Under the pieces are notes generated by a model. The model was not told where the DNA came from. It worked only from the letters and a program-made list of their open reading frames with translations, and made no database searches. 64,000 bases of DNA, taken from the NCBI RefSeq assembly GCF_029961155.1, contig NZ_JASBRH010000001.1, positions 1 to 64,000 of the forward strand. The letters are read 5' to 3'. Shown piece by piece: positions 38,024 through 57,637 of the stretch (position 1 is its first letter; every line of letters starts with the position of its first letter). This stretch comes from Pontibacterium granulatum (GTDB lineage: Bacteria > Pseudomonadota > Gammaproteobacteria > Pseudomonadales > Balneatricaceae). A program made the translations under genes and the position numbers.

Positions 38024-39376
38024 ATGTATAACGATAATCCCAACACCACTCGCGCCATCTCCGTTTCCGAACTAAACAAGCAGGCTCGTTCGCTGCTGGA
38101 GCGCTCCTTCCTGATGATCAGTGTAGAGGGGGAGCTTTCAAATTTCGTCCGCCCCAGCTCCGGCCACTGGTATTTCACCTTGAAAGACGACAAGGCCCAG
38201 GTACGCTGCGCCATGTTCCGCAACCGCAGCCAGTTCCTGAAATACCAGCCCAAGAACGGCGATCGTGTACTCGTGCGGGCCAAGGTCAGTCTGTACGAGG
38301 GACGCGGCGACTTCCAGTTGATCTGCGATTACATGGAAGAAAGTGGTTCCGGTCGTCTGCAACAGGCCTACGAAGAACTAAAAGCCCGGCTGCACCGCGA
38401 AGGCCTGTTCGACAACCAGCATAAAAAACCGCTGCCGAGCCACCCGGCGCATATCGGGATTATCACCTCCCCCACCGGGGCCGCCATCCACGATATCCTC
38501 ACAGTAGTGAAGCGTCGCTTCCCAGGCCTTCCTGTCACACTGTACCCCACCGCGGTGCAGGGTGAAGAAGCGATTACACAGATAGAACGCGCAATTGAAC
38601 TGGCTAACCGCCACAACATCTGCGATGTGTTAATCGTTGGCCGTGGTGGCGGCTCACTGGAAGATCTGTGGGCCTTCAACGAAGAGCGCGTTGCCCGCGC
38701 AGTATTCAACAGCCGGATTCCGGTGATCAGTGCCGTGGGTCACGAAGTAGATGTGGTCATAACCGATTTTATCGCCGATGTGCGCGCACCGACCCCATCC
38801 GCTGCGGCCGAGATGGTGAGTCCTGACCAGCACACATTGCAGCTGCGCCTGAATCAGGCGAAACAGCGCCTGGCATCGCAACTCAAGCGCCAGCTCTATT
38901 TCCGTCGGGAACGGCTAGTGGCACTGCGCGCCCGTCTGCGCCATCCTGGCGACCAGCTACGCCAGCAGGCCCAACGACTGGACGACCTGGAACAACGCAT
39001 GCAACGGGCAATGCTGCGTAAACTCAGCGACCGTCAAACCCGCCTGCAGCACTTACAACAGCGCCTGCAGAACCAACAACCGAGTCAGCAGATCCGTCGC
39101 TATCGCCAGCAAGTGGTTCAATATCAGCACCAGCTACAGCAACTGCTCCAGGCGCGGTTGAGGCAAGCCCGAATGGAACTTAAAGCCCAGGCCGAGCGTC
39201 TCCATGCGGTAAGCCCTCTCGCTACTTTGGATCGAGGTTATGCCATCGTGCAGGACGAAAACGGAAAAGTGCTGCAGGACAGCCAGCAGGTAAAGGTGGG
39301 CGAACAGATTCAGACACGCCTGCAGAAAGGACGACTGCAGTGTACCGTTGACCAGATAATTACGGAGAATTGTTAA
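38024..39376 (+). CDS. xseA: Exodeoxyribonuclease VII large subunit
   Basis: A 450-residue protein. The N-terminal OB fold contains ISVSELNKQARSLLERSF and VEGELSNFVRPSSGHWYFTL. The catalytic domain has VGRGGGSLEDLWAFNEE and GHEVDVVITDFIADVRAPTPSAAAE. A long coiled coil (about 280-400) rich in Q, R and L holds the small subunits. It digests single-stranded DNA with XseB. The start could be ATG 38015 or 38024; both are in frame and neither has a strong ribosome site. A frame extension to 37934 is unlikely. The gene is divergent from guaB, as in E. coli. Confidence 0.94.
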   Translation: MYNDNPNTTRAISVSELNKQARSLLERSFLMISVEGELSNFVRPSSGHWYFTLKDDKAQVRCAMFRNRSQFLKYQPKNGDRVLVRAKVSLYEGRGDFQLICDYMEESGSGRLQQAYEELKARLHREGLFDNQHKKPLPSHPAHIGIITSPTGAAIHDILTVVKRRFPGLPVTLYPTAVQGEEAITQIERAIELANRHNICDVLIVGRGGGSLEDLWAFNEERVARAVFNSRIPVISAVGHEVDVVITDFIADVRAPTPSAAAEMVSPDQHTLQLRLNQAKQRLASQLKRQLYFRRERLVALRARLRHPGDQLRQQAQRLDDLEQRMQRAMLRKLSDRQTRLQHLQQRLQNQQPSQQIRRYRQQVVQYQHQLQQLLQARLRQARMELKAQAERLHAVSPLATLDRGYAIVQDENGKVLQDSQQVKVGEQIQTRLQKGRLQCTVDQIITENC

Positions 39377-55083: not shown

Positions 55084-55915
55084 TTCGCTTCCTCCAGGCC
55101 TGTTGATAACCACGAATCTGATCCACTTCCTGTAACAACTCCGCCATCGGAGGGATGTTGAAGTCACGTTCCAGCAAAGTCGGCACGGTTCCAAATTGGT
55201 CGTATGCCTGCTGCAGCAGTTTCCAAACCGGATCGACCACGTCGGCACCGTGAGTATCGACAATCAGGTCTTCCGCTTCGTTGTAGTGACCCGCAACATG
55301 GATATACATGATGCGATCAGCCGGCATTGCTGCCAGAAATTCTTCAGCGTTGTATTTATGGTTGATGCTGTTGACGTAGATGTTGTTCACATCCAGCAAC
55401 AAGTCACAGTCGGCCTCATCCAGTACCGCCAGTAGAAACTCCAGTTCGGTCATTTCATGGCTTGGCGCTGCGTAAAAGGAGACGTTTTCAACCGCAATCT
55501 TCTGCTCCAGTACGTCCTGAGTCTGCCGGATACGCTGCGCCACGTAGCGCACGGCCTCCTCGGTAAACGGGATTGGCATCAGATCGTACAGATGTCCGTC
55601 ATCAGTGCAGTAACTCAGGTGCTCTGAGTACCCACGGATACTGTGTTCCTTCATGAACACTTTCAGGCGGTTCAGGAAATCCAGATCAAGGGGAGACGGG
55701 CCGCCCAACGAGAGGGATAAACCGTGGGTCATTACCGGGTAACGCTCTGCCGTTTCGCGGAACTTCTTACCAAAGCGACCGCCCAGGCCAATCCAGTTTT
55801 CCGGAGCCACTTCCAGAAAATCGATCCGTGCTGGATCCACTTCTGGTAGCGTATCTGCCATGCATCGGCGATAACCAATGCCTGCACCCTTTACCGGATA
55901 ACCCTGTTCTCTCAT
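55064..55915 (-). CDS. hvfB: MNIO (DUF692) RiPP peptide maturase, HvfB-like
   Basis: A 283-residue TIM-barrel protein of the multinuclear non-haem iron oxidase family. Likely metal ligands are present: HGLSLSLGG, SEHLSY, IAVENVSFY, LLDVNNIYVNSINH, IHVAGHYN, DTHGADV and LLERDFNIP, all in the usual order. MNIO enzymes use iron and oxygen to change cysteines in precursor peptides; MbnB forms an oxazolone-thioamide pair, and Hvf enzymes act on EGKCG motifs. The protein is of full family length with no missing ligand, so it should be active. AGGAAAGG precedes the ATG. It lies 77 bases after hvfA and overlaps hvfC by 20. Confidence 0.95.
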   Translation of the reverse strand: MREQGYPVKGAGIGYRRCMADTLPEVDPARIDFLEVAPENWIGLGGRFGKKFRETAERYPVMTHGLSLSLGGPSPLDLDFLNRLKVFMKEHSIRGYSEHLSYCTDDGHLYDLMPIPFTEEAVRYVAQRIRQTQDVLEQKIAVENVSFYAAPSHEMTELEFLLAVLDEADCDLLLDVNNIYVNSINHKYNAEEFLAAMPADRIMYIHVAGHYNEAEDLIVDTHGADVVDPVWKLLQQAYDQFGTVPTLLERDFNIPPMAELLQEVDQIRGYQQAWRKRNDRTVA

Positions 55916-55943
55916 CTGTCCTTTCCTCTCACCTTGCTATAAA

Positions 55944-55968
55944 CAGGGCTTCGAATTCCGAAGCCCTG
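55944..55968 (-). terminator. Perfect stem-loop between hvfA and hvfB
   Basis: CAGGGCTTCG and CGAAGCCCTG form a perfect 10-bp stem with a 5-base loop, 25 bases after the hvfA stop. On the minus strand TTTATAG follows. A partial terminator or 3' stabiliser here would give much precursor and little enzyme. Confidence 0.75.
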
Positions 55969-55992
55969 GGGTTTTACAGGTAGAAGCGCTGA

Positions 55993-56406
55993 TCAGCTTT
56001 TACCACCGCATTTGCCTTCACCACACTTGCCTTCAGCAGTCTTTTTCTCACCGCCGCACTTGCCTTCACCGCACTTGCCTTCGGCAGTCTTTTTCTCGCC
56101 GCCGCACTTACCTTCGCCACACTTGCCTTCGGCAGTCTTTTTCTCGCCGCCGCACTTGCCTTCACCGCACTTGCCTTCGGAAGTCTTTTTCTCGCCGCCG
56201 CACTTGCCTTCACCACACTTGCCTTCTTCGGTTTTCTTGTGACCGTGGTTATCGGCCAGCTGCACCTGAGCGTAACCGGAGTCCAGTTCGGAAGCCGCGA
56301 ATGGGTTAGCAGCCGCGTTTGCTGTTGTAGCCGTTGCAACACTCGCAACCAGCGCCAGACCAACAGCAGCAACAACAGGTTTCAGAGTAGATTTAGTAGT
56401 AGCCAT
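55993..56406 (-). CDS. hvfA: RiPP metallophore precursor with EGKCG repeats (HvfA-like)
   Basis: A 137-residue exported precursor. Residues 1 to about 31 are a signal peptide (KPVVAAVGLALVASVATA, cleavage near ANA). A spacer (32-60) ends in a His-Gly-His-Lys-Lys stretch. Residues 61-135 hold five units of 16 residues, each EGKCGEGKCGG followed by EKKTA or EKKTS; the last unit is cut after CGG and followed by KS. This gives ten EGKCG-type motifs and ten cysteines, with none elsewhere. In related peptides the cysteines become copper-binding groups. The ATG at 56406 has GAGGGTGA upstream; an in-frame ATG at 56421 is possible. Confidence 0.93.
   Translation of the reverse strand: MATTKSTLKPVVAAVGLALVASVATATTANAAANPFAASELDSGYAQVQLADNHGHKKTEEGKCGEGKCGGEKKTSEGKCGEGKCGGEKKTAEGKCGEGKCGGEKKTAEGKCGEGKCGGEKKTAEGKCGEGKCGGKS
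56002..56226 (-). repeat. 48-bp tandem repeat inside hvfA
   Basis: Four full copies and one partial copy of a 48-bp unit coding EGKCGEGKCGGEKKT(A/S). The copies differ at only a few positions, mostly silent (for example CACCGC against CGCCGC). Such near-identical repeats can gain or lose units by slippage or recombination, which would change the number of cysteines. Confidence 0.95.
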
Positions 56407-56653
56407 TGTTTTCACCCTCATTCTTCTCGTAGCAAAATTTTTTAAAATTTATGGTTTCGTTTCGTATTCAAAGTGCCGATCACATCCTGTGGCTGGCATT
56501 GGAAAATGCGCTGACATCATCTACCCGCTTTTCCGATCTCCTGTCACCCATCCGGATTGTCCGGGTAGATGAATTTAATTCTTTTTCCCCTTGGCCTTGC
56601 GCTTTGACTAAATTATTATATTAGGCAATCCTAATTTACATTGGAGACCTTAA
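56407..56653. promoter_or_regulatory. Divergent control region of hvfA and the SLAC1-like gene
   Basis: 247 bases. Two dyads stand out: TCATCTACCCG (56517-56527) with CGGGTAGATGA (56562-56572), a perfect 11-bp inverted repeat 34 bases apart; and ATTAGG-CAAT-CCTAAT (56620-56635), just before the channel gene. A third, smaller stem (CCGGA and TCCGG) overlaps the right arm of the first. No clean sigma-70 promoter is seen for hvfA, so an alternative sigma factor or an activator is possible. Confidence 0.6.
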
Positions 56654-57637
56654 ATGGCTGATACTGCCACTTCATCCTCTCCTGTTTCAGCAAAGCTTCC
56701 ACATTTCCCTATCGCATTCTTTGCAATGATTATGGGAACCTCCGGCCTTACGCTGGCCTGGCAGAAAGCTACAGAGGTATTGCAACTTCCGGCACTGGTG
56801 AGTCAGGTCATGTTGATTCTGGTTACCTGTCTCTTTCTGGTCGTCTGCCTTGGGTATGCGCTCAAGATACTGCGCTTTCCTGAAATGAGCCTGAAAGAAT
56901 TTCATCATCCGATCAAAATTAGCTTTTTTCCTGCATTTTCCATTTCGCTGCTTTTGCTGAGTGTGGCGACACTACAAGTTTCGGCAGATCTATCCTTGTT
57001 TCTGTGGGCGTTGGGCTGTGTTATGCATCTGGGTTTCACCTTGTATGTGATCACCCAATGGATCCATCATCCAAAATTTCAGATTCAACACAGTACACCG
57101 GCATGGTTTATCCCTGTGGTGGGCAACATCATCGTACCAATTGCAGGTGTTACCCACGGTTTCACAGAACTGAGCTGGTTCTTCTTTAGTATTGGACTGG
57201 TGTACTGGTTGGTTTTAAAGACGCTGATCTTCAACCGCATGCTCTTTCACGACCCGCTGCCGGAGAAACTGCTACCAACCCTGTTTATCCTGATCGCCCC
57301 ACCGGCAGTAGGGTTTATCTCCTACACCAAGTTGAACGGCGGTGAGATCGATGGTTTCGCGCGTATTCTGTTCTATTCCGCGATGTTCCTGGTTTTGTTG
57401 CTGATTACTCAGCTAGAACGCTTTCGTCGTATTCCGTTCTTTCTGTCCTGGTGGGCGTACTCGTTCCCTCTGGCAGCCTCCTCTATCGCAATCCAGACGA
57501 TGTATCAAAAAACCGGCTCCAGCTTTTTGGGTTTGCTCTCCTGGGTCTCCCTTATGGTTGTCAGTCTGGTGATTGCTCTGCTGCTGTTCAAAACCTTTAA
57601 GGCAGTGCACAGCGGTGGCGTGTTCCAGCCGGATTGA
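56654..57637 (+). CDS. SLAC1/TehA-family anion channel
   Basis: A 327-residue membrane protein with ten predicted helices. The start LPHFPIAFFAMIMGTSGLTLAWQKA is the family mark, and later there is VYWLVLKTLIFNRMLFHDPLP and FILIAPPAVGFISY. Members include TehA (tellurite resistance), plant SLAC1 anion channels and yeast sulfite exporters. The anion carried cannot be told from sequence. It is divergent from hvfA with a shared 247-base upstream region; whether it belongs to the copper system is open. TTGGAG precedes the ATG. Confidence 0.9.
   Translation: MADTATSSSPVSAKLPHFPIAFFAMIMGTSGLTLAWQKATEVLQLPALVSQVMLILVTCLFLVVCLGYALKILRFPEMSLKEFHHPIKISFFPAFSISLLLLSVATLQVSADLSLFLWALGCVMHLGFTLYVITQWIHHPKFQIQHSTPAWFIPVVGNIIVPIAGVTHGFTELSWFFFSIGLVYWLVLKTLIFNRMLFHDPLPEKLLPTLFILIAPPAVGFISYTKLNGGEIDGFARILFYSAMFLVLLLITQLERFRRIPFFLSWWAYSFPLAASSIAIQTMYQKTGSSFLGLLSWVSLMVVSLVIALLLFKTFKAVHSGGVFQPD

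Follow-up and report, generated by a model that had tools for sequence, protein, structure and literature searches.

Structured 5′ leaders and other cis-acting stem-loops can stabilise or tune the messages that carry them. The region upstream of hvfA in Pontibacterium granulatum resembles such leaders, in that tandem local hairpins precede the ribosome-binding site, with a divergent promoter region on their other side, and the structure of the array is kept while its sequence changes; it differs in that the array has no terminator and no Rfam match, and is a prediction from sequence. There is also a likeness to the operator pairs of AraC- and LacI-type looping regulators, in the presence of two arms 45 bp (about four helical turns) apart; here, however, the arms are not specially conserved in relatives. 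A third comparison is with the heavy-metal sigma-F promoter of Caulobacter, GTAACC-N16-CGAA (PMC3511200), whose description, in the sections available to us, shares with this locus the terms DUF692 and DUF2282 and the MNIO/bufferin kind of gene; the difference is that the window has GTGATC with CGAA at spacings of 13 and 18 (about 56455–56485, by eye), which does not match that motif. The chemistry of the oxazolin-type peptide family has been described in the available sections of two papers (PMC12452194, PMC13419390), and in the portions of the literature covered by a limited search no leader RNA is described for hvfA or its relatives.

The window, by which we mean the whole 64-kb stretch of DNA analysed, contains hvfA and a divergent transporter gene, with these features:

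55993–56406, minus strand: hvfA, which encodes an oxazolin/EGKCG-type copper-binding RiPP precursor and starts at 56406
56654–57637, plus strand: tdt, divergent TDT/SLAC1-family transporter gene, start at 56654
56591–56619, plus strand: sigma-70-like tdt promoter, TTGGCC-N17-TATTAT (9/12; one found against 1.1 expected in shuffles)
56620–56635, no strand: palindrome ATTAG-N6-CTAAT just after the predicted tdt −10, a likely tdt operator (predicted)

The hvfA start at 56406 was chosen because one relative, L033, has no upstream ATG at the position of 56421. The hvfA, hvfB, hvfC and hvfX proteins score over the cut-offs of the NCBIfam models NF050137, NF003818, NF050145 and NF050144, and hvfA falls under that of the equivalog NF050188 (77.7 against 95). 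Since the genes downstream of hvfA match HvfB, HvfC and HvfX (NCBIfam), the product of the cluster is probably an oxazolin-type copper-binding peptide. Between hvfA and hvfB there is a 10-bp hairpin (55944–55968), the third-ranked window of the conservation control given below (−4.7), which may act as a partial terminator or as a processing site and so hold hvfA expression above that of the maturation genes.

The transporter search found 262 relatives, from which 80 loci were kept; seven of these have a divergent hvfA-like gene, defined as at least three KCG/RCG motifs in one frame on the opposite strand upstream of the transporter. Three of the loci were taken for the structure work: L034 (an Oceanospirillaceae MAG), L035 (Pontibacterium sinense) and L033 (an uncultured Marinobacterium), which over the region are 75, 76 and 64% identical to the window. 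Four more (L036, L037, L038 and L047) align poorly there and were left out. Within the resulting set of four sequences two are 91% identical, and identity is 64–76% between the window or L033 and the others. By eye, the hexamers and spacing of the tdt promoter recur in all three relatives in the alignment. The palindrome is present at 8 of 8 loci with a divergent hvfA (the window and the seven others) and, in this or the CTAAA form, lies no more than 200 bp upstream at 19 of the 80 transporter loci, none of which falls outside the 20 listed as closest; their records name Marinobacterium, Pontibacterium, Amphritea, Neptuniibacter, Nitrincola, Ferrimonas and one Oceanospirillaceae MAG. Because most of the loci that carry it have no neighbouring hvfA by the KCG/RCG definition, the palindrome belongs to the transporter and not to hvfA. 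It is a likely repressor site; a site of the BigR/SqrR family that matches it was not found in the portions of the literature looked at.

The sequence-only reading had been drawn to a different element, a perfect inverted repeat of 11 bp with a smaller dyad overlapping its right arm. Both are present, the dyad at 56544–56572 and the arms, TCATCTACCCG and CGGGTAGATGA, separated by a spacer of 34 bases and by 45 centre to centre:

56517–56527, no strand: left arm (L) of the repeat, in the middle hairpin, on its 5′ side and in its loop
56562–56572, no strand: right arm (R) of the repeat, its outer part being the 5′ arm of the hairpin H1

The same reading held that such a repeat is not likely to arise by chance. 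Within the 246-bp intergenic region this is fair: perfect repeats with arms of at least 11 and spacers of 3–60 were seen in 14 of 4000 dinucleotide shuffles, and with spacers up to 220 in 20 of 4000. It fails at the scale of the window because of the number of places to look; the repeat is unusual locally, yet about one per 64 kb is expected by chance. Over the whole window there are nine repeats with arms of at least 11 and spacers of 3–100, whereas 30 shuffled windows averaged 1.03 and never held more than 3. Of the nine, seven have spacers of 3–15 and a terminator-like look, and wide spacers occur in just two, that at 56517–56572 (34) and one at 38167–38248 (60). The latter, CTGGTATTTCA, is thus the sole other wide-spacer perfect repeat with such arms in the window. 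In the 4.66-Mb genome TCATCTACCCG has six copies, two of which are the arms themselves; judged by eye from their flanks, the other four do not look like paired sites, and genome-wide use of the arm as a site was dropped. Matches to the arm with up to two mismatches are in slight excess in the window (21 against 13.65 expected, equalled in 4 of 100 shuffles). Among 116 genomes of the family the exact pair of arms was found in this genome alone. In L034, L035 and L033 respectively the right arm keeps 8, 6 and 7 of its 11 bases and the left arm 8, 8 and 4, and the region as a whole keeps 96, 98 and 76 of 138; the arms are conserved about as much as their surroundings.

We do not take the 11-bp repeat itself to be the functional unit. 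What is shared between species is an array of local hairpins around it:

56544–56572, minus strand: H1 (the smaller dyad), with 7 pairs (two of them G-U), a 1×1 loop, 5 pairs and a 3-base loop
56501–56534, minus strand: the middle hairpin (GGAAAA...TTTTCC), with 4 of 9 consensus pairs left in L033
56474–56498, minus strand: H3 (TGCC..CACA GGA TGTG..GGCA), with 6 of 8 consensus pairs left in L033
56453–56590, minus strand: the structured region in full, which is among the four sequences used for covariance model R1

H1 and H3 recur in the four species and the middle hairpin is clear in three; H1 is kept with compensatory changes in L034 and L035, and a variant hairpin stands at the same place in L033. 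Sliding consensus folds of the four sequences reached −35.25 kcal/mol (z −8.8) on the hvfA strand over alignment columns 80–170, a value as low as which was given by 0 of 100 shuffled alignments; on the tdt strand they reached −27.2 (z −6.8). The RNAalifold consensus has 28 pairs, six of them with changes on both sides; the window contributes three of these, all of them in H1, and L033 the other three, in the middle hairpin only. Of the 112 cells 89.3% are paired, matched in 0 of 500 shuffles, and the double changes were matched in 3 of 500. With the three closest sequences alone this support drops to 32 and 35 of 500, so that much of the weight is carried by L033, which keeps 19 of the 28 consensus pairs (L034 keeps 28, L035 27 and the window 26). 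There is conserved secondary structure with compensatory changes among the four sequences, and support for it is weaker with three.

On stretches chosen by eye, H1 alone scored z −3.0 to −3.5 on the hvfA strand in 4 of 4 species, against −1.4 to −2.8 on the other strand; in an unselected 40-base scan it ranked first in the window, L034 and L033, and third in L035, where it scored −3.25 on the tdt strand and −2.62 on the hvfA strand. As a control, 125 windows were scored on both strands over 3.8 kb of the four loci (250 scores, mean −0.67, sd 1.44). The lowest score, −5.5, belongs to the middle hairpin and H3 on the hvfA strand, the second, −5.1, to the same place on the tdt strand, and the fourth and fifth (−4.6 and −4.5) to two hvfA-strand windows that contain H1. 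From these comparisons we would put conservation of the hairpin array in the region at about seven in ten.

The array at 56453–56590 is most likely a structured 5′ leader of the hvfA mRNA, a reading to which we give a probability of roughly 0.45. The suggestion of a long hairpin in the hvfA leader survives in part: there is a conserved hairpin array whose consensus fold is better on the hvfA strand, and it consists of local hairpins and not of one long 11-bp helix. Such a leader would be on the minus strand, with its hairpins some 166 to 68 bases upstream of the start codon. Its role would likely be post-transcriptional, either to shield the message of a small and probably abundant peptide from decay or to tune its translation. 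R would serve as the 5′ arm of the first hairpin and L would be a second, similar partner sequence within the middle hairpin; with the perfect match between R and L in this species, the leader could also refold into a long-range helix. We infer that the array is transcribed, its strand, and that it affects expression. The odds are set a little under even because the single-sequence folds are inconsistent as to strand, because no sigma-70-like promoter is seen ahead of H1 and because of the position of a promoter-like motif in L036 and L037.

On the hvfA strand, the sequence ahead of H1 yielded no sigma-70-like promoter. In L036 and L037 a promoter-like motif, GAAACTTT..GTCACA, starts 116 and 149 bases before the start codon respectively, and H1 spans bases 166–138; the identification of the motif as the hvfA promoter is our reading of the letters. 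If the hvfA start site has not moved from that motif, at least H1 would not be transcribed with hvfA. In L036 (Marinobacterium jannaschii), some 105–131 bases before hvfA, a hairpin of 12 pairs (one G-U), AATTTAAGGTTT/AAACTTTAAATT, overlaps the GAAACTTT motif. Promoters were surveyed in 30 hvfA upstream stretches (L113–L142), these being the loci obtained from 38 matching genomes; three of the 30 (L115, L116 and L129) are from the window's own clade, and at several an internal ATG had been taken as the start, so that distances there were not used. Three motifs emerged: GAAACTTT-N12..16-GTCACA in 9 of 30, GTAAGGA-N12..18-CGACT in 7 and TTTCAG-N5-TTTCAG before TATAGT in 7. These promoter-like motifs of other clades are absent from the window and its three nearest relatives. 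With at least three of them in the family, control of the copper peptide may have been rewired repeatedly.

Of the alternatives, the one that survives best, and which we consider unlikely, is that the hairpins and the repeat are traces of template switching, where one arm is copied onto the other in replication to give perfect stems and apparent compensation with neither selection nor function; this mechanism has been described for RNA hairpins (PMC8794818, in the sections available). A perfect 11-bp match in this species only, imperfect in L034 and L035, is the expected trace of one copying event. However, the neighbouring hairpins recur in four species despite identities of 64–76% between the window or L033 and the others, and changes on one side would be expected to break pairs if there were no selection, yet pairing is kept in 89.3% of the cells.

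Less probable again is that a DNA-binding regulator of hvfA or tdt uses the arms as half-sites, in which case R, the 3′ arm of H1 and L would be up to three CNGATGA-like half-sites. A CAGATGA/GCGGATGA-like half-site can be read in the sequences of L034 and L035 also, and the promoter-like motif of L036 and L037 is downstream of, or overlaps, the position of H1, where an upstream activator site could lie. Set against this, the arms show about the same conservation as their surroundings, the pair is present in 1 of 116 genomes, no regulator was identified, and the inner stem of H1 stays paired though its sequence changes, unlike a protein site.

It is more doubtful still that the structure is a separate small RNA or an RNA of the tdt strand. 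The hairpins do score on that strand too (z down to −6.8, and −5.1 in the control), and folded singly over the whole region (138–142 bases) the window is more stable there, with z −3.6 against −1.7 on the hvfA strand; such folds are level for L034 and slightly favour the tdt strand for L033, with L035 alone favouring the hvfA strand. On the other hand the predicted tdt promoter at 56591–56619 reads away from the structure, and both the consensus fold and a census of the consensus helices favour the hvfA strand, on which there are nine G-U pairs against two A-C mismatches (the helices having been predicted on that strand).

The pairing of R with L could itself be functional, the leader then switching between two states as R takes the 3′ arm of H1 or L for its partner; we regard this as very unlikely. 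The long-range helix and the three-hairpin fold are mutually exclusive in the predicted structures, with energies of −36.3 and −32.1 respectively in the window, −28.1 and −31.5 in L034 and −24.8 and −32.4 in L035. The folds thus compete in the window and L034, by 4.2 and 3.4 kcal/mol in opposite directions, and column 26 of alignment A2 changes in step with its partner in both helices. The three-hairpin fold is favoured over the long helix by 3.4 kcal/mol in L034 and 7.6 in L035; the predicted minimum of L035 is a third fold (−32.9 against −32.4 for the three hairpins), and the long helix is the predicted minimum in the window species only. In the three closest species 84.8% of the cells of the 11-bp helix pair, against 30–46% when it is slid. 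However, covariation of the helix is unsupported, 180 of 500 shuffles scoring as high in what is a low-power test on three sequences; the long helix is poor in L035 and by eye its counterpart was not seen in L033. On these predictions the perfect repeat is a species-specific strengthening of a competing pairing, whether through drift, template switching (PMC8794818, in the sections available) or selection. That a two-state leader under copper or redox state controls the precursor of the copper-binding RiPP, with this species shifted towards the long-range helix, has the slimmest chance of the readings to which we attach one.

Finally, a pair of operator half-sites for a looping regulator, which the sequence-only reading had proposed and had made to depend on conservation of the arms in close relatives, is not supported and fails on that count, since alignment of the regions upstream of related hvf clusters shows arms about as conserved as the region around them and just one of 116 genomes has the exact pair.

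Other types of leader element were tried and rejected. For an intrinsic terminator or attenuator (a GC-rich hairpin followed by a U run), the two terminator-like sites in 56000–57500 are both inside the hvfA coding region and none is in the leader. An upstream peptide was dropped because its short frame is not conserved: the window has two 23-residue frames (56480–56551 and 56449–56520, minus strand), L034 and L035 have one of 22 residues each, in which by eye the differences are mostly residue-changing, and L033 has no ATG frame of at least 15 codons. A CsrA site was likewise rejected; ACAGGATGT in H3 resembles the CsrA motif in the window and L033, but by eye it is missing from that place in L034 and L035.

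Model R1 was searched against 116 genomes of the family, where its matches were just the four genomes that built it, at a single site in each, upstream of hvfA (by construction), and against 293 genomes of the order, where the sole match was the window's own genome; both searches were run under strict filters, by which weak matches are lost. Within these searches the structure is a feature of one small clade. Rfam gave only two matches over 55900–56800 (E 1.6 and 4.5); neither lies in the leader, and each falls far short of its gathering score.

The finding is real but small and limited to one lineage. The striking perfect repeat was a poor guide, and its unremarkable neighbour is the conserved part. 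In the portions of the literature looked at, little is said about the control of oxazolin-type copper peptides; should the leader prove real, it would add a post-transcriptional layer to that control, in the form of a small and directly testable element.
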